Positions 6,001-60,538 of a DNA stretch of 64,000 bases are shown in pieces. This DNA comes from Nitratidesulfovibrio termitidis HI1 (lineage in GTDB: Bacteria > Desulfobacterota > Desulfovibrionia > Desulfovibrionales > Desulfovibrionaceae): positions 2,354,250 to 2,418,249 of the forward strand of contig NZ_KI632512.1 of assembly GCF_000504305.1 (NCBI RefSeq), written 5' to 3'. Made by a program: the position numbers and the translations under genes. Numbering within the stretch: position 1 is the stretch's first letter; each line of letters begins with the position of its first letter. The notes under the pieces were generated by a model, which saw only the letters and a program-made list of their open reading frames with translations, ran no database searches and was not told the DNA's origin.

Positions 6001-7033
6001 TGTCCTCGCGCATGCGCCACAGGGACAGGCAATCGCGGTGCAGTTCCGGCAGGTCGCGCTCGCGCAGGCCATGCTCCGGAAACTCCGCTTCCGGCGAACC
6101 GGGCGCGGCCATGGGCGGCGCCATGCCCTCGGTGGCGCGCAACAGTTCCTGCAAATTTTCCACCCGACCGACCACCGCCGCAGGCAGGCCGCGCCAGTAG
6201 GACACATCGGCCCTGCGGATGTGGCGGTAGTGCACGACCATGTCGTCGTGGCGCGCGAACATGCGCACAGCGCCGCCGCCCCGCACCCGGAACATGCGCC
6301 CGAAGTCGGTCACCGAAAGATCGTGGCGGTGTTCTGCCGCGCATCCTTCGCGGAACAGCACGCCCACTGGCGGATCAAGCCGTGCCAGCCGGTGGCCGAT
6401 CTCGATGTCCTCCGCGCCCCACAGTTCGCCCGTGAACGCCTCGTCGAACAGCCCCGCGTCGAACAGGGCCTGCCGGGGCGTGCTGACATTGCAGGTGTAA
6501 TAGTGGCCGCCGCCATACAGGACGTCCTGCCGCAGGCTGCCATACTCGAACACGAGGTCGGAACGGGTAAGCGTGAACCCCCAGAGCCTGGAGCGAAACG
6601 CCCGGGGCAGCTCGAACCGGCCCAGGATGGAAATGCGCAGTTCGGGCAGTGCCAGATGGGTTTCCAGATGCCCGCGCAAGCCGTTTGGCTCCAGCATCGC
6701 ATCGTCATTCAGAAAGAGGACATACTCCCCTCGCGCCGCCCGAATGCCCACATTGCGCGCACGGGCAGGCCCCCCCCGCGACGGCTGGCAGAATGTGCGC
6801 ATGGAGAACGGTGCCACATGCGTCGCCAGAAATTCCGGGGTTCCGTCGGTGGAACCGTCGTCCACCACCAGCACCTCGAACCGGTCGCGCGGCAGGGTCT
6901 GCGCCGCCAGGCACTCCAGGCACTGACGCAGGATATCCAGCCTGTTGCAGGTGGGAATGACGACGGACAGCAGCGGGGCGAAATCCTTTCCCCCCTCCGC
7001 GCCCGGAAATGGGATGCGTGGTTCCGTGTCCAT
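3053..7033 (-). CDS. Trifunctional glycan polymerase: GT2 + GT2 + CDP-glycerol glycerophosphotransferase-like
   Basis: The protein is 1326 aa with ATG at 7033. Domain 1 (~20-260) is a GT2 transferase with LSVVIPTCNRLDILRQC, VDDGSTDG and the metal-site region FLNDDAM. A second GT2 (~465-700) has FSVVTAAYNAAPWLDEM, VDDGSTDD and VGFIDADDMV. The C-terminal ~400 residues match the Glyphos_transf family of TagB/TagF type: FLQHGVIKDDLS, TVLFCPTWREHL and VTDYSSLAFEFGYMGRP. That family moves glycerol-phosphate from CDP-glycerol onto a growing chain. Together the domains would build a sugar/polyol-phosphate repeat at the cytoplasmic membrane. No membrane segment is seen. The next minus-strand gene starts 19 nt after its stop. 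Confidence 0.88.
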   Translation of the reverse strand: MDTEPRIPFPGAEGGKDFAPLLSVVIPTCNRLDILRQCLECLAAQTLPRDRFEVLVVDDGSTDGTPEFLATHVAPFSMRTFCQPSRGGPARARNVGIRAARGEYVLFLNDDAMLEPNGLRGHLETHLALPELRISILGRFELPRAFRSRLWGFTLTRSDLVFEYGSLRQDVLYGGGHYYTCNVSTPRQALFDAGLFDEAFTGELWGAEDIEIGHRLARLDPPVGVLFREGCAAEHRHDLSVTDFGRMFRVRGGGAVRMFARHDDMVVHYRHIRRADVSYWRGLPAAVVGRVENLQELLRATEGMAPPMAAPGSPEAEFPEHGLRERDLPELHRDCLSLWRMREDRLLPLIDARIAEVRQTLAMLRKGRCSMQQAARGIYPACLYLRWHHDTVGVCAAQDIVRIMRRGERDEAASPADPPTSPASAASPIFPVRPPGADARAAGAADSAGGDPALRLAEARESGQKGFLFSVVTAAYNAAPWLDEMFTSLERQTLDFAANIQVVLVDDGSTDDTPAVAGRWARRYPSSVVVVRKENGGPASARNAGLAHATGDWVGFIDADDMVAPDYFETVRNFLTANCYDGPVVACNTRLYEDGTGRIGDAHPLAYKFESTRVADLMAEPECIQLSLSSCFIRSQVLGATGLSLDERIRPTFEDAHFLNLLLLRARDFRVAFVKEAHYLYRRRGAGSGLVEGGWQSPAKYREQILYGYLDIVQQYRRVLGEVPAFVQNLVLYESHWYMVRLLDGGVAGVLDADGWTTFFDLMALLFRNVDARQVLLSRLPSLELRTRIAMLGAFKGAGFTSAPFVLTDLAPGGGQAQLVHWTTCGPGDGDDADTGKADGAMEQGAPAYALHNAEGQPVDMRWARTCVHYLGGRALLREQRFWVDLPQGQPVCPEVDGERPGVLCRGALLETLDRDAVCERFYLPISALGGQQQAILAMAAEPGAARYRGGWVFMDRVHKADDNAEHLCRWVLEHRPDLPVHFVLDRRSADWTRLEREGFPLLPYHSREHFLALANAEWLVSSHVDPPVADPMGMRDLTGLPPYKLAFLQHGVIKDDLSRWLNQIRLDLMVASARLEYASLLGGRYKLTEREVALTGLPRHDTLLRKAATRRPGRTVLFCPTWREHLRLGGPDVYEAHASGLRPGEARHFRQSDFFRAWSAVTSSQSLARMARDRGWKLLFLPHPELVRFLPLFPRSDAFTFLDWAELGSVQDFLVGCAVAVTDYSSLAFEFGYMGRPVAYYQFPEKPDIYATHVWQKGYFDCAAHGLGPVVRTTGELEAWLDDTMRHGGRRQELYERRADAFFTLRDGQNCRRTCEAILARSAQT

Positions 7034-23300: not shown

Positions 23301-23403
23301 TTTGGCTCACCGGGCCTGGCCCGGAAACACCGGCGGCCGTGCCGCCGATGTACGATCCACGGACGCCTCGCCGCGCCCGCCAGTGGCACGCAAGGAGATA
23401 TGC

Positions 23404-25518
23404 ATGGCCAACAATCTGTACATCACCGCGACGGAATCAAAGAGCGGCAAGTCCGCCGTGGTGCTCGGCATGATGCAGCTATTGCTGCGCGACATCCGCA
23501 AGGTCGCCTTCTTCCGCCCCATCATCAACCGACCGGTCACGGAAGCGGTGGACCACGACACCAACCTCATCCTGACCCACTTCAATCTCGACATCCCCGT
23601 GGCCGACACCTACGCCTATTCGCTGCAGGACGCCCGGGAGCTGATCAACAACGGTCAGCACGCCTCGCTGCTTGAAAACATCCTGAAGAAGTACAAGCAG
23701 CTGGAAGACAGCTACGACTTCGTGCTCTGCGAGGGCACCGATTTTCTGGGCAAGGATGCCGCCTTCGAGTTCGACCTGAACGCCGACATCGCCGCCAACC
23801 TCGGCTGCCCGGTGATGGTGGTGGCCAACGGCCAGCAGAAGACCGCCAACGAAATCATCGCCTCCACCCAGCTGACCATCGACCTGCTGGACGAAAAGGG
23901 CCTGGACATCGTGGCCGCCGTGATCAACCGCGCCTCGGTCTCCGACGCCGAGCGCGACGTGGTCATCAGCAGCCTGGAATGCAAGGTCAACTGCTCCAAC
24001 CCCCTGGCCGTGTACGTGGTGCCCGAGGAACCCACCCTGGGCAAGCCCACCATGGGCGACGTGAAGAAGTGGCTGAACGCCCAGGTGCTGTACGGCCACG
24101 GCCGCATGGATACCCTGGTTGACGACTACGTCATCGCCGCCATGCAGATCGGCAACTTCCTCGACTACGTCACCCCCGGGTGCCTCGTGATCACCCCCGG
24201 CGACCGTTCGGACATCATCCTCACCGGCCTTGCCACCCGCCTTTCCGGCGCCTACCCCGACATTTCGGGCATGCTGCTGACCGGCGGCATCCAGCCCGCG
24301 CCCAACGTGCACCGCCTCATCGAAGGCTGGACCGGGGTGCCCATTCCCATCCTGTCGGTGAAGGACCACACCTACAAGACCATCCAGACCCTGAACGAAC
24401 TCTACGGCAAGATCGAACCGGACAACGACCGCAAGATCGCCACCGCCCTCGGCCTGTTCGAGCGCAGCGTGGACAGCCAGGAACTGGGCCGCCGCCTGAT
24501 CAACCGCAAGTCCAGCCGCATCACCCCCATGATGTTCGAGTTCAACCTTATCGAGCGCGCCAAGCAGAACCGCATGCGCATCGTGCTGCCCGAAGGGGTG
24601 GAGGAACGCGTCCTGCGCGCCGCCGACATCCTGGCCCGGCGCGAGGTTGCCGACATCATCCTGCTGGGCGACGCCGACAAGGTGGGCTCCAAGGTCAGCG
24701 AACTGGGGCTTGACCTGGACGGCGTGCAGATCATCCAGCCCAACCTGTCGCCCAAGTTCGAGGAATACGCCCAGGCCTACTTCGAACTGCGCAAGCACAA
24801 GGGCATCAGCATCGAACGCGCCCGCGACACCATGAACGACGTCACCTACTTCGGCACCATGATGGTGCACAAGGGCGACGCGGAAGGCATGGTCTCCGGC
24901 TCCATCAACACCACGGCGCACACCATCCGCCCGGCGTTCGAGTTCATCAAGACCAAGCCCGGCTTCTCCATCGTGTCCAGCGTGTTCCTGATGTGCCTGA
25001 AGGACCGCGTGCTGGCTTTCGGCGACTGCGCGGTGAACCCCAACCCCACGGCGGAGCAGCTGGCGGAAATCGCCATCAACGCGGCCCACACCGCGCGCAT
25101 CTTCGGCATCGAGCCGCGCGTGGCCATGCTGTCGTACTCCACCGGCTCGTCCGGCAAGGGCGCCGACGTGGAAAAGGTCATCGAGGCCACCCGCATCGCC
25201 AAGGAACGCGCGCCGGAACTGCTGCTGGAAGGCCCGCTGCAGTACGACGCCGCCATCGACATGGACGTTGCGCGCACGAAGCTCCCCGGCAGCCAGGTGG
25301 CCGGCAGGGCCACGGTGTTCATCTTCCCCGACCTGAACACCGGCAACAACACTTACAAGGCCGTGCAGCGCGCCGCCGGGGCCGTGGCCATCGGCCCGGT
25401 GCTGCAGGGCCTGAACAAGCCCGTCAACGACCTGTCGCGCGGCTGCACGGTGCCCGACATCGTGAACACCGTGGCCATCACCGCCATTCAGGCGCAGGCC
25501 GAGAAGGGTCTTATCTAG
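23404..25518 (+). CDS. pta: Phosphate acetyltransferase, long form with BioD-like and DRTGG N-terminal domains
   Basis: The protein is 704 aa. ATG at 23404 has AAGGAGA upstream. It converts acetyl-CoA and phosphate to acetyl-phosphate and CoA. Residues ~1-215 form a P-loop domain of dethiobiotin-synthetase type (ITATESKSGKSAVVLGMM). A DRTGG domain follows (LVITPGDRSDIILTG). The catalytic PTA domain spans ~375-700, with RIVLPEGVEERVLRAA, MVHKGDAEGMVSGS, LSYSTGSSGKGADVEKV and FIFPDLNTGNNTYKAVQR. The N-terminal domains are known to tune activity in long-form Pta enzymes. It feeds AckA encoded downstream and supplies ATP from pyruvate oxidation. Confidence 0.96.
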   Translation: MANNLYITATESKSGKSAVVLGMMQLLLRDIRKVAFFRPIINRPVTEAVDHDTNLILTHFNLDIPVADTYAYSLQDARELINNGQHASLLENILKKYKQLEDSYDFVLCEGTDFLGKDAAFEFDLNADIAANLGCPVMVVANGQQKTANEIIASTQLTIDLLDEKGLDIVAAVINRASVSDAERDVVISSLECKVNCSNPLAVYVVPEEPTLGKPTMGDVKKWLNAQVLYGHGRMDTLVDDYVIAAMQIGNFLDYVTPGCLVITPGDRSDIILTGLATRLSGAYPDISGMLLTGGIQPAPNVHRLIEGWTGVPIPILSVKDHTYKTIQTLNELYGKIEPDNDRKIATALGLFERSVDSQELGRRLINRKSSRITPMMFEFNLIERAKQNRMRIVLPEGVEERVLRAADILARREVADIILLGDADKVGSKVSELGLDLDGVQIIQPNLSPKFEEYAQAYFELRKHKGISIERARDTMNDVTYFGTMMVHKGDAEGMVSGSINTTAHTIRPAFEFIKTKPGFSIVSSVFLMCLKDRVLAFGDCAVNPNPTAEQLAEIAINAAHTARIFGIEPRVAMLSYSTGSSGKGADVEKVIEATRIAKERAPELLLEGPLQYDAAIDMDVARTKLPGSQVAGRATVFIFPDLNTGNNTYKAVQRAAGAVAIGPVLQGLNKPVNDLSRGCTVPDIVNTVAITAIQAQAEKGLI

Positions 25519-25522
25519 GCTG

Positions 25523-25548
25523 ACAGCCCTATCTTCCAGGGGCTGTTT
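25523..25548 (+). terminator. Hairpin after pta that shares its 3' arm with the structured repeat
   Basis: ACAGCCC (25523-25529) can pair with GGGCTGT (25540-25546), followed only by TT. The same GGGCTGT is also the 5' arm of the long outer stem of the 25539-25683 element, so the two folds exclude each other. Confidence 0.4.
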
Positions 25549-25683
25549 CCAGATTAGGATTTTCGTTCGTTGGCAAGGAAAACGAGCCTGCCATGAGGGA
25601 GTATACTCTTCTCGTATTCGACCGAAATGGAAGGCGAAGTTTGACGCAGCCAACGGGCGAAAGGACAATCTGGGAATAGCCCC
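25539..25683 (+). repeat. Structured repeat element, short form (candidate structured RNA or palindromic mobile repeat)
   Basis: This 145-nt element lies between pta and ackA. Outer helix: GGGGCTGTTTCCAGATT (25539-25555) with AATCTGGGAATAGCCCC (25667-25683), 17 pairs including two G-T. Middle helix: CGTTGGC (25568-25574) with GCCAACG (25649-25655), extended by TTTCG/CGAAA. Inner helix: GCCTGCCAT (25586-25594) with ATGGAAGGC (25627-25635), one mismatch. The apex has the palindrome GAGTATACTC. Bases AAGGAAAACGAG on the 5' side and GAAGTTTGAC on the 3' side are shared with the second copy at 59898-60212. The remainder of the 273-nt pta-ackA gap shows no promoter I trust. Confidence 0.75.
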
Positions 25684-25791: not shown

Positions 25792-27006
25792 ATGAACGTA
25801 CTCGTCATCAACTCCGGCAGCTCGTCCATCAAGTACCAGCTCATCGACATGACCACCGAGAAGTCCCTGTGCTCCGGTCTTGTCGAGCGCATCGGCGAAG
25901 GCATGGGCAAACTGACCCACAAGATCAAGCCCGACACGGACGCCGAGGAAAAGATCGTCCTCGAACAGGCGTTCGCCAATCATGTCGAAGGCATGAAGAA
26001 AGTCGTGGACCTGATCACCGATGCCGAGAAGGGCGTCATCGCCGACAAGAGCGAAATCTACGCCGTGGGTCACCGCGTGCTGCTTGGCGGCGAAGAAATC
26101 AAGCAGTCCGTCAGGATCGACGACTGGGCCAAGGGCATCATCCGCGACTACATTCCGCTGGGTCCGCTGCACAACCCCGCCAACCTCGCGGGCATCGAAG
26201 TGGCGGAAGAACTCTTCCCGCATGCGCCTTCCGTGGGCGTGTTCGACACCGAGTTCCACCAGACCATGCCCAAGAAGGCGTACCTGTACCCGCTGCCCTA
26301 CGACCTGTACAAGACGCTGCGCATCCGCCGCTACGGCTTCCACGGCACGTCGCACCGCTACATCACCAAGAAGACCGCCGAGTTCCTGGGCAAGCCCCTG
26401 GACCAGCTGAACATCATCACCTGCCACCTCGGCAACGGGTGCTCCATGGCCGCCGTGAAGAACGGCAAGTGCGTGGACACCACCATGGGCATCACCCCGC
26501 TGGAAGGCCTGATGATGGGCACCCGCTGCGGCGACATCGACCCCGCCCTGGTCCCCTTCCTGATGGAAAAGAAGGGCTGGTCCGGCGCCGAGATCGACAC
26601 CGTGATGAACAAGCAGAGCGGCCTGAAGGGCATCTGCGGCATGAACGACATGCGCGACATCCACACCGCCCGTGAAAATGGCGACGAGATGGCGGAACTT
26701 GCGTTCGAGATGTTCGTCTACCGCATCCGCAAGTACATCGGCTCGTTCGCCGTTGTGGTGGGCAAGCTGGACGCCATCGTGTTCACCGCCGGCATCGGCG
26801 AGAACGACGACCACCTGCGCGCCGCGGTGTGCAAGGACATGGACATCCTGGGCATCGACATCGACGAGGCGGTCAACGCCAAGCGTTCGGGCCAGGCGCG
26901 CCACATCGGCAAGCCCGGCCAGCGGGTGCCCGTGCTGGTGGTGCCCACCAACGAAGAACTGGAAATCGCCCAGACCACCGTTGCCGTGCTGAACGGCAAG
27001 AACTAG
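25792..27006 (+). CDS. ackA: Acetate kinase
   Basis: The protein is 404 aa; ATG at 25792 is preceded by AAAGGAAAAG. It transfers phosphate from acetyl-phosphate to ADP, giving acetate and ATP. Family signatures are VLVINSGSSSIKYQLID at the N-terminus, YGFHGTSHRYI with the catalytic His near the middle, HLGNGCSMAAVKNGKCVDTT and GTRCGDIDPALVPF, and the C-terminal FTAGIGENDDHLRAAV. Length is normal for the family (~400 aa). It lies downstream of pta with the structured repeat in between. Together they are the substrate-level phosphorylation step of the operon. Confidence 0.98.
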   Translation: MNVLVINSGSSSIKYQLIDMTTEKSLCSGLVERIGEGMGKLTHKIKPDTDAEEKIVLEQAFANHVEGMKKVVDLITDAEKGVIADKSEIYAVGHRVLLGGEEIKQSVRIDDWAKGIIRDYIPLGPLHNPANLAGIEVAEELFPHAPSVGVFDTEFHQTMPKKAYLYPLPYDLYKTLRIRRYGFHGTSHRYITKKTAEFLGKPLDQLNIITCHLGNGCSMAAVKNGKCVDTTMGITPLEGLMMGTRCGDIDPALVPFLMEKKGWSGAEIDTVMNKQSGLKGICGMNDMRDIHTARENGDEMAELAFEMFVYRIRKYIGSFAVVVGKLDAIVFTAGIGENDDHLRAAVCKDMDILGIDIDEAVNAKRSGQARHIGKPGQRVPVLVVPTNEELEIAQTTVAVLNGKN

Positions 27007-46383: not shown

Positions 46384-46908
46384 ACCCCCCCCAAGGGATG
46401 GTGCCACGGGCCGCGCAGACGCACTGCTCTCCGATGCAGGCAACCCGGCTGTCTCTGCACGAGATCCGTGGCTTTCCGTCCCCGCTTCACAGCGGGTTTG
46501 GCTTTCATTTGTTATGTAGGAGTGACCCACCCTAAAGGATGTGTCAATGTGCCACGCCAAGCACACGAAGTCGCACATCCAGCTTTTACATAATTATTTC
46601 ATTGCATTCACAACGCACCCACAATCCCCTTCCGCAGCCCTACCTGCAAAATACGGGTTTCACCTAGTCGCGAATATCGACAGGGCAATACTCTTTGGGG
46701 CAGCGCTGCCGCCGCAACCATCGGGCGGTACGAACACAGGGATACGAAATGGCGTACCGGAGCACTGGCGGCACATTGTCGCACGGCCCTTGCCTGCGCC
46801 TGCGCATTGGGGCATGCCCGCCTGTGGGGCTGGCCGGACTTCGCCACCACGGCGTACGGTCACCACGCCGCCATCGCGCCGCCCGTCTTCCACCGCCCCG
46901 GAGGCAGC
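46384..46908. other. Non-coding divergent region
   Basis: This 525-nt gap separates the receiver-like gene and the divergent membrane-protein gene. It is AT-rich around 46585-46620. The 46546-46551 region reads TTGACA on the minus strand but lacks a matching -10 box at 16-18 nt. No gene is supported. Confidence 0.5.
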
Positions 46909-58983: not shown

Positions 58984-59553
58984 CTACAGCCCCCACTTCT
59001 CCACGGCTACCGGGGTATAGGCGCGCATGGCGGACACCAGCTGGGCCGGGTCCGCATTGGCCATGACCATGGCCCTGTGCCCCTGAGGCAGAAAGCGCTC
59101 TTCGATCATGTGGTCGATCATGCCGAAGAACGGCCCGTAGAAACCGCCCACATCCAGCAGGCCGATGGGCCGCGCGGGCGGATACAGCTGCCCTTCCACC
59201 CATATCTCGAACAGTTCCTCCAGTGTGCCGATGCCGCCGGGCATGGCCACGAAGCCCTCGGCCAGCTGGGCCATGCGGGCCTTGCGACTGCGCATGTCGG
59301 GCACCACGTCGTGGCTGGTCAGGCCTTCATGCAACTGCCCGCGTTCCACCAGCTTCTCGGTGATCACGCCGTGCACCTCGCCCCCGGCGCGCAGGGCTGC
59401 GTCAGCCACAACACCCATGAGGCCCTTGGTGGTGCCGCCGTAAACCAGGCGGATGGACTGTGCCGCCAGGGTCTGTCCCAGCGCGACGGCTGCCTTCAGA
59501 TAGTCGTCGCCCCTTCCGAAATTGGAGCCGCAATACACGGCGATGCTGCGCAT
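58984..59553 (-). CDS. LOG family protein (nucleotide 5'-monophosphate phosphoribohydrolase)
   Basis: The protein is 189 aa; ATG at 59553 has GAGGG upstream. It is a Rossmann-like fold with the family signature PGGIGTLEE at 105-113, and MRSRKARM ~18 residues before it supplying the conserved Arg. The N-terminal strand is IAVYCGSNFG. Members release ribose-5-phosphate from AMP or cytokinin nucleotides; in bacteria the natural role is often purine nucleotide turnover. It stands alone on the minus strand with the long structured repeat upstream. Confidence 0.92.
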   Translation of the reverse strand: MRSIAVYCGSNFGRGDDYLKAAVALGQTLAAQSIRLVYGGTTKGLMGVVADAALRAGGEVHGVITEKLVERGQLHEGLTSHDVVPDMRSRKARMAQLAEGFVAMPGGIGTLEELFEIWVEGQLYPPARPIGLLDVGGFYGPFFGMIDHMIEERFLPQGHRAMVMANADPAQLVSAMRAYTPVAVEKWGL

Positions 59554-59965
59554 GGCGAATGCCCTCGTTTGTGGCGTTGTCGCGGCGATGCCGTGATGGT
59601 CGTTGCGGTGAGGTTCCTGCCGGGCGGCGCACCCGCGTCCACCCGCAAGGGCGGTTACCTACTCCCCTGCGGCGCGGGGTGCAAGGGCGGATAGGGCGGT
59701 TGCGCTGGAACGTTTTCCTCCCGCTCAACGCAGCAGGGGGTACGATCCGCCCGAAAGCGTGGCCGCGCCAGCCCCCAGAAAACAACACGGGACCGGATGT
59801 GACATCCGGCCCCGTACATGTTCTTCGTGCCAAGGCAGAAACAGGTGTGATCCCACGCGCTGACGCGACGGGATTTTCGTTCTCCGGCTATGCTGAAGGC
59901 TCAAAGCTGCAAACCAAGATTTTTTTCCGCTGGCAAGGAAAACGAGGCCGCCATGAGGGAATATG

Positions 59966-60005
59966 CCTCAACCGTTAGGCGAGCTTGCGAGCCTTACGAT
60001 TGAGG
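59966..60005 (+). repeat. REP-like hairpin 1
   Basis: CCTCAA, CGTTAGGC, a centre with GA/GA and GC/GC, then GCCTTACG and TTGAGG. Arms pair with one T-T mismatch. It is inserted in the apical loop of the 59898-60212 element. Confidence 0.75.
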
Positions 60006-60036
60006 ACCGCAGCGCGCTCTTGGGTATTTGACCGAG

Positions 60037-60077
60037 CCTCAGCCGTTAGGTGAGCGAAGCGAACCTTACGGATAAGG
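60037..60077 (+). repeat. REP-like hairpin 2
   Basis: CGTTAGGT (60044-60051) with ACCTTACG (60063-60070). The closing pair changes from C-G to T-A relative to hairpin 1 and the GA/GA tandem is kept in the centre. It is inserted between GACCGA and AATGG of the core element. Confidence 0.75.
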
Positions 60078-60121
60078 ACAGCAACGCAATGGCGGCCGAA
60101 GTTTGACCTCTCTGCGCACGA

Positions 60122-60155
60122 TGCCCGTAAGGCTCGCATACTCGCCTAACGGGCA
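60122..60155 (-). repeat. REP-like hairpin 3, opposite orientation
   Basis: CGTAAGGC (60126-60133) with GCCTAACG (60144-60151), extended by TGCC/GGCA. As a reverse complement it reads CGTTAGGC ... GCCTTACG, the same unit as hairpin 1. It is inserted on the 3' side of the core element. Confidence 0.75.
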
Positions 60156-60214
60156 CGCTTCGCGCCCTTCGGGTCGGTAGCCAGCGGGGAAAAGGGCGGT
60201 TTGCAGTCAGCCCC

Positions 60215-60538
60215 CTAGCCGCAGCAACTGCTCGAACTCCCGCACCCGCTGCAACCACCGCCACCGCCGCCAAGCTGCACTTCGGAGGTCACGGCAAAGC
60301 CCATGGAGCCAAGGTCGATGTTGATGGCGCCGGACTGTTCCAGCAGCGCACCGTTGACGCAGAAGGTGTAGCCGCCGGGCTCGAACACCTTGTCTTCTTC
60401 GCCGGGCTCGTCCAGGGCCAGGGCCAGACGCGGGCCGCTGCAACCGCCGGGGGCTAGGTAGACGCGGATGGGGCTGCGCTCCTTGTCGGAGAAATAGGCA
60501 TCAAGTTCCGTGCGGGCACGGTCGGTAAGCGTGATCAT
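60215..60538 (-). CDS. IscA/HesB-like protein with Cys-rich C-terminal tail
   Basis: The protein is 107 aa from ATG at 60538; AAGGAG lies 13 nt upstream and GTG at 60547 is an alternative. A-type scaffold pattern: MITLTDRARTELDAYF, then VYLAPGGCSGPRLALAL with Cys33 in the usual first position, and AINIDLGSMGFAV. The standard C-terminal CGCG motif is replaced by a glycine-rich tail with CSGCGSSSSCCG (four Cys). It probably carries an Fe-S cluster or iron, perhaps with different geometry. It is transcribed from a near-consensus promoter. No isc or suf genes are adjacent. Confidence 0.85.
   Translation of the reverse strand: MITLTDRARTELDAYFSDKERSPIRVYLAPGGCSGPRLALALDEPGEEDKVFEPGGYTFCVNGALLEQSGAINIDLGSMGFAVTSEVQLGGGGGGCSGCGSSSSCCG

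Follow-up and report, generated by a model that had tools for sequence, protein, structure and literature searches.

The question raised by this locus is what kind of structured sequence appears twice, with the same short blocks in the same order and with helices of different sequence, in a 64,000-nt stretch of the Nitratidesulfovibrio termitidis HI1 genome (hereafter the window, meaning the whole stretch of DNA that was analyzed). The initial annotation had described a two-copy repeat with three nested helices, knew of no named family that fits, and proposed either an independent ncRNA or a mobile palindromic repeat. Re-reading of the sequence confirmed both elements, at 25539-25683 and 59898-60212, together with their shared blocks. 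The features of the two copies and their surroundings are the following:

25539..25683, + strand: copy 1, a compact 145-nt element in the minority orientation, between presumed pta-like and ackA-like genes
25539..25555, + strand: left arm of P1 of copy 1, pairing with 25667-25683
25556..25574, + strand: left arm of P2 of copy 1, with a G.A junction to P1, pairing with 25649-25666
25575..25586, + strand: conserved block AAGGAAAACGAG of copy 1, G.A junction and left arm of P3
25586..25594, + strand: left arm of P4 of copy 1, pairing with 25627-25635
25595..25625, + strand: P5 hairpin of copy 1, GAGGGAGTATAC-TCTTCTC-GTATTCGACCGA, with tandem G.A at its base
59898..60212, + strand: copy 2, carrying modules A, B and C; 2 nt separate its 3' end from a stop codon
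59898..59915, + strand: left arm of P1 of copy 2, pairing with 60195-60212, in sequence unlike P1 of copy 1
59918..59934, + strand: left arm of P2 of copy 2, pairing with 60180-60194
59947..59954, + strand: left arm of P4 of copy 2, pairing with 60088-60096
59965..60016, + strand: module A, a palindromic insert of 52 nt where P5 of copy 2 has its loop region
60036..60087, + strand: module B of copy 2, a second insert of the same hairpin type as A, behind GACCGA
60108..60179, + strand: module C of copy 2, behind GAAGTTTGAC, the module-A/B hairpin type in reverse complement
60215..60538, - strand: gene docked by copy 2
58984..59553, - strand: gene on the other side of copy 2

In copy 1, AAAC of P3 pairs with GTTT of 25636-25645, and the entire element has a folding energy of -77.9 kcal/mol (z -9.1, 200 shuffles). 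It lies on the + strand between two + strand frames, 23302-25518 and 25792-27006, which, judged from their sequences, are presumably pta-like and ackA-like, respectively. Copy 2 folds with -147.7 kcal/mol (z -5.4, 100 shuffles), and the 139-nt core that is left without its three modules folds like copy 1 (-73.9 kcal/mol); thus, the difference in length between the two copies is due to optional hairpin modules. Copy 2 shows the typical placement of the family, docking at CTA 60215-60217, the stop codon of the - strand gene 60215-60538 (presumably HesB/IscA-like, as judged from its sequence); the gene on the other side, 58984-59553, we likewise take to be LOG/TIGR00730-like. Of the two copies, only copy 2 runs against its neighboring genes as proposed, copy 1 being co-oriented with its neighbors on the + strand, and the view that the elements are not a simple leader was borne out. 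A c-di-GMP-I-GGC riboswitch was also detected in the window (46435-46511, - strand, 62.3 bits, above the gathering score).

The core of about 145 nt forms, on one strand, one long nested hairpin, so the nested helices stand as described, although they are five (P1-P5) rather than three. Their conservation in spite of sequence change is far beyond chance: in a sequence-only alignment of 25 compact copies from the same genome (alignment A1), standard pairs made up 92.0% of 1295 pair cells (83.5% in shuffles), double-sided changes occurred in 35 of 52 pairs (15.7 in shuffles), and none of 500 shuffles reached any of the five covariation measures, while pairing dropped to 36-47% when the structure was slid along the alignment. 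Helices P2-P5 were paired in 93-99% of cells and the outer P1 in 79.6%. Tandem G.A mismatches commonly mark the step from one helix to the next, with GA/GA present at P2/P3 in 24 and at P4/P5 in all 25 of the compact copies, and more weakly at P3/P4 (17/25) and P1/P2 (15/25). On the strand originally read, G.U outnumbered A.C (108 vs. 17 cells), and for 108 of 115 copies this strand gave the more stable fold; this is therefore the strand whose fold is conserved. Identities as a K-turn or as an integron attC site were set aside by eye, the latter by comparison with its R boxes.

Such strong covariation, the excess of G.U over A.C and the conserved tandem G.A junctions could be expected of an independent family of small-RNA genes with a cellular function. 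However, even strong covariation is not by itself proof of an ncRNA gene, a search of Rfam at the gathering score and at E <= 10 gave nothing credible for the element, and the dispersal of about 120 copies, their empty sites and their docking at stop codons speak against this explanation, which we regard as most improbable. Of the two options initially offered, the mobile palindrome is the better one.

The number of copies in the home genome is much larger than two. A 15-base block of the element was found, with at most two mismatches, 60 times on the forward and 63 times on the reverse strand of the 4.26-Mb genome, compared with 5 and 2 occurrences of the reversed block as a control. A covariance model built from the 25 compact copies (R1) gave at least 97 matches at E <= 0.01 when 150 of 1336 candidates were scored, missing some module-bearing copies including copy 2. 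Together with a pattern-plus-pairing search, whose pairing step overcalls copy ends, it yielded 120 copies (24 bounded by the model and 96 by the pattern), a few of which are probably false. These copies cover 4.2% of the home-genome DNA analyzed. Counts of genomic context use 115 copies, leaving out five inside predicted genes and keeping one (2411927) that overlaps what reads as a tRNA. One element of this genome (1270119-1270263) lies behind a gene whose protein reads as ribosomal protein L35, with 147 nt between the element and the next same-strand gene.

The position of the copies was then related to genes, which were predicted for all context counts by a codon-usage caller seeded on codon-position G+C. 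The 3' neighbor lies on the opposite strand for 106 of the 115 copies (73 + 33), and 102 copies end at the stop codon of the opposite-strand gene, in one orientation, where the end is allowed to lie from -125 to +30 nt of the called one; among the model-bounded copies, the stop lies within 10 nt of the end in 23 of 24. Copy 1 belongs to a group of three copies that instead have the end of a same-strand gene no more than 12 nt from their 5' end. The docked stops are TAG in 87, TAA in 10 and TGA in 5 cases (n = 102), as against 203 TAG, 133 TGA and 73 TAA among the stops of other genes (n = 409; TAG enrichment p 1e-11). The analyzed non-coding DNA outside the copies contains 876 CTA/TAG triplets besides 290 TAG stops, and even use of the non-coding CTA/TAG triplets would place only about 25% of the copies at stops. 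A replication-strand effect was also looked for by eye in the context counts, where it is confounded by gene orientation.

The same docking was observed in other genomes. An opposite-strand frame was counted there when it spanned 300 nt or more and stopped no further than 12 nt from the stem's 3' end, and such a frame accompanied 57 of 87 copies, compared with 222 of 4350 random positions. TAG accounted for 51 of these 57 stops, and for 16 of the 87 copies a same-strand frame of 300 nt or more also stopped close to the 5' end. These 87 copies were hand-picked from 114 matches over 79 loci by dropping same-place antisense matches, partial model cover, duplicate or cut loci and flanks shorter than 420 nt; the 79 loci include 47 of the 80 listed relative loci, and some may belong to the genus of the window. 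The near-exclusive use of stop codons and the single polarity may reflect either targeted insertion or later selection.

Comparison with congeners provided evidence of mobility. When 61 sites with both flanks present in the congener G066 were sorted automatically and roughly, 19 appeared empty, 10 carried the same element, 21 were diverged or different and 11 fell into other classes; sorting errors include 4102259 (a negative gap) among the empty sites, a tRNA site among the diverged ones and two false own calls (2414443 and 3659931) among the ten. Inspection of eleven sites showed ten without the element in G066, the eleventh (3659931) being a false own call. Two of them, 3571898 and 3660302, read ...CC-TA-... 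in G066 and ...CC-TA-[GGGG...CCCC]-TA-... when filled, and only in these two was the CTA/TA at the stop exactly duplicated, with the stop codon keeping its place; at the other inspected sites, the side away from the gene has diverged. The pta-ackA gap, about 169 nt in the window, measures about 47 nt in the congener G038 and contains, in G066, an element with modules A and B. At three other sites (3368489, 3493839 and 3463650), G066 carries an element of different sequence at the stop of the same gene.

The modules themselves share a palindromic unit of about 52 nt of the CCGTTAGGCGAG..CTCGCCTTACGG type (59965-60179 in the window), and all three differ in presence between orthologous copies (2379776, 3504136 and 3551206). 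The module hairpin occurs 71 times inside called copies and 10 times outside, some of the latter being in missed copies and part of them in the loops of other palindromes (2671117, 3506057 and 4937 of the same genome). Modules A, B and C thus look like a second palindromic family whose members occupy hairpin loops and are gained and lost at fixed internal positions. A similar habit is described for YPAL/RU-2 of Yersinia, reported to be placed at or next to dyad symmetries (PMC2229807); in this comparison by description, YPAL/RU-2 termini lack TA, unlike those of the element. A locus in another genome (L437, G099:C1:14606-15367) carries five head-to-tail tandem matches to the element, suggesting amplification by recombination.

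Pairing also appears to be maintained after insertion. From the 61 sites, 20 were chosen by hand, 7 of which were skipped for low identity and 13 aligned. In these ortholog pairs, changes affected 78 of 1525 paired and 57 of 636 unpaired positions (p 0.001), 32 pairs were broken in situ compared with 60 by random placement, and 7 compensated double changes were seen compared with 1.8. The deficit of broken pairs and the excess of compensated changes therefore indicate that the sites retain their pairing to a certain extent, either through selection or through conversion among the copies; the in-situ bias of G.U over A.C (23 vs. 15, p 0.26) was not significant.

Docking exactly at the stop and pairing kept in situ would suit a host 3'-end RNA element, such as a terminator or mRNA stabilizer, that is selected at each gene and whose mobility is rare and incidental. 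Several orthologous stops carry different elements in two species, as if an element were needed there, docked copies are mildly enriched at convergent gene ends (30/102 vs. 42/236, p 0.02), and copies are depleted in tight tandem gaps of less than 60 nt (14/72 vs. 64/194, p 0.03). On the other hand, those same 14 of 72 tandem copies lie in tight gaps as inside operons, and the U-tract of an intrinsic terminator is absent behind the hairpin, as judged by eye on the consensus, which ends in ...CAGCCCCTA on one strand and ...GGAAACAGCCCC on the other. Furthermore, function in a 3' UTR would not require that TGA be nearly avoided (5/102), and 19 of the 61 roughly sorted sites are empty in the congener. 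Such a host element is an unlikely explanation, albeit one that keeps some weight.

Although no named family had seemed to fit, the ERIC sequences of Enterobacteriaceae and Vibrionaceae come close. With E-values that are rough for both models used here (shortened calibrations), R1 matched the E. coli ERIC between wcaD and wcaE from end to end (18.4 bits, E 5e-4). In a test on ten enterobacterial ERICs (5 kb), it matched eight over their whole length and in the sense orientation, with E-values from 3e-6 to 6e-3, and L431 and L428 only with E-values of 1.3 and 2.5. These ten were modeled out of twelve, L425 (the same site as L424) and L435 being left out, and L430 and L432 represent one site in two Rahnella. 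Conversely, a covariance model of the ten Enterobacterales ERICs (R2), run over 688 kb of the window's genome, had hits with E <= 10 at 12 places, and at six of these E was below 0.01. Elements account for 11 of these places, in every case in the sense orientation (best E 1.7e-7; p 8e-15), so that R2 recovers only 11 of about 120 copies. R2 also overlapped the element in 19 of 26 loci from other genera at E <= 10 (9 at E <= 0.03), and a further six-locus test gave three matches at E < 0.01. The register of the outer helices differs between the R1 and R2 alignments.

Both ERIC (about 127 bp) and the element are imperfect palindromes that form one nested hairpin and have TA ends, the TA duplication of the element being clean in two sites; both contain GGCAAG and GAAGCCAACG blocks and a GA/GA junction under a GGAGYnTAC..GTAnnTGAC hairpin, present in all 25 aligned copies and in all ten ERICs. 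The element differs in that its outer helices and P3 are longer, it can carry modules A-C, the sequences of its helices are quite different, it docks almost exclusively at stop codons and it occurs in a different phylum. In four of nine annotated ERIC loci (two of the four being the same Rahnella site), the 3' end of the match lies 8 nt or less from the end of an opposite-strand CDS, and De Gregorio reportedly found in 2005 that ERICs adjoining stop codons prefer one orientation. On the sequence comparisons, distant homology between the element and ERIC seems a better reading than convergence of two hairpin elements. ERICs are described as dispersed in tens to hundreds of copies, with Enterobacteriaceae and Vibrionaceae as hosts (PMC10969869), and as having TA ends, target duplication and an orientation-dependent effect on mRNA (PMC2229807). 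In a search for relatives that covered the phylum of the window and Enterobacterales ERICs, hosts of the element were found in the window's own phylum, outside the ERIC host range, and the element is therefore classed as related to ERIC rather than as a true ERIC.

The spread of the family is considerable. R1 detected it in at least 29 of 99 genomes of the bacterial family (30 candidates scored each), at least 76 of 297 of the class and at least 37 of 297 of the phylum (ten candidates scored each), the last comprising at least 27 genera, and several other genomes have at least 20 copies. Named hosts include Nitratidesulfovibrio oxamicus, N. liaohensis and Desulfovibrio sp. A2, and records titled Desulfovibrio, Nitratidesulfovibrio and similar were assumed to be Desulfobacterota. 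The search of relatives with a covariance model, as initially proposed, thus found many further covarying copies. Two loci carrying the element (L313 and L324, WRKB01) come from a MAG titled 'Betaproteobacteria bacterium' Nt197P4bin33; an 8416-base contig with a match at 6877-7031, as in this MAG, is also present in G030, a genome of the window's family, and the title is probably a misnomer. Plasmids and phages, searched with one compact copy as query, gave no match. No description of such an element was found, at the level of titles, in the open-licence literature on Desulfovibrio repeats, REP, small RNA and ERIC, and the words repeat, palindrom-, terminator and transposon are absent from the main text of a computational ncRNA survey of Oleidesulfovibrio alaskensis G20 (PMC11124144).

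TA-flanked miniature palindromes also include the RUP and Correia/NEMIS MITEs, to which the element was likened by description, and Correia is reported to affect neighboring mRNAs through RNase III (PMC2229807, PMC10969869). The TA duplication and the GGGGCTGTTTCC terminal inverted repeats of the main subfamily would be consistent with a MITE of an IS630/Tc1-mariner-type transposon with TA as target, the likeness to ERIC being convergent. However, the IS630-type DDE_3 domain (PF13358) had no match in the four genomes of the genus (G000, G038, G066 and G085), and 32 of the 38 matches of the terminal repeat in the home genome lie in called copies (the other 6 being outside the sequence examined), so that no longer partner was seen. 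Moreover, the ERIC matches include the junction bases, and nearly symmetric ends do not explain the use of one orientation, which makes a MITE of this type quite improbable.

REP/BIME sequences are likewise high-copy intergenic palindromes, and the REP/RAYT system relies on a Y1 tyrosine transposase that mobilizes tagged palindromes in single-stranded form. A strand-specific fold, asymmetric docking and 'TAG' at the hairpin base would all be in keeping with such a system, GTAG REPs are reported often to supply the TAG stop of neighboring genes (PMC3733652), and Y1 genes occur in some copy-rich genomes (G026, G019 and G056). REPs are far shorter than the element, however, at 20-40 bp (PMC3733652), and no match to the Y1 transposase domain (PF01797) was found in the home genome (G000), the congeners G038 and G085, or G034, G040 and G068, each of which has at least 20 copies; the congener G066 has one match, with an internal stop. 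Movement by a RAYT is thus very unlikely.

The element is probably an ERIC-type miniature non-coding mobile palindrome with unusually strict docking at stop codons. It stands directly against a pre-existing stop, mostly TAG, whose position is unchanged, and nearly always has the gene on the other strand at its 3' end. By analogy with ERIC, it would be moved in trans by an enzyme acting on the folded strand, with (C)TA as target and duplication of TA on insertion. It would then be co-transcribed as the first part of the 3' UTR of the gene, where its hairpin might tune mRNA decay, as reported for ERIC in Yersinia (PMC2229807). Several observations count against this reading, among them the poor E-values of two of the ten ERICs, the small share of copies recovered by R2, the in-situ G.U bias that lacks significance and the clean duplication at two empty sites only. 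A search for a mobilizer gave no match to PF01797 or PF13358 in the home genome. P1 is the least regularly paired helix and is more variable among copies than is usual for the terminal repeats of DDE-type elements, and in 108 of 115 copies the best-folding strand is antisense to the docked gene, so that a role in the mRNA would rest on the weaker strand.

A more far-reaching possibility, which we consider speculative and unlikely, is that ERIC belongs, as a single branch, to an ancient family of mobile hairpins spanning phyla, and that the machinery integrating them recognizes translation stops and not merely a short DNA motif, insertion being tied to the UAG/UAA (RF1-read) stops of translated genes, for example through the mRNA on which a ribosome terminates or the DNA exposed behind it. 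If true, this would explain the fixed polarity, the order TAG > TAA > TGA and the near-absence at other CTA sites.

While ERIC-type mobile palindromes are already known, an ERIC-like family in relatives of Desulfovibrio appears, from the open-licence literature searched, to be new. A related family in another phylum, present in at least 27 genera, offers independent lineages in which the mobilizer may be sought by co-occurrence and in which the reason why such elements dock at stop codons can be tested.
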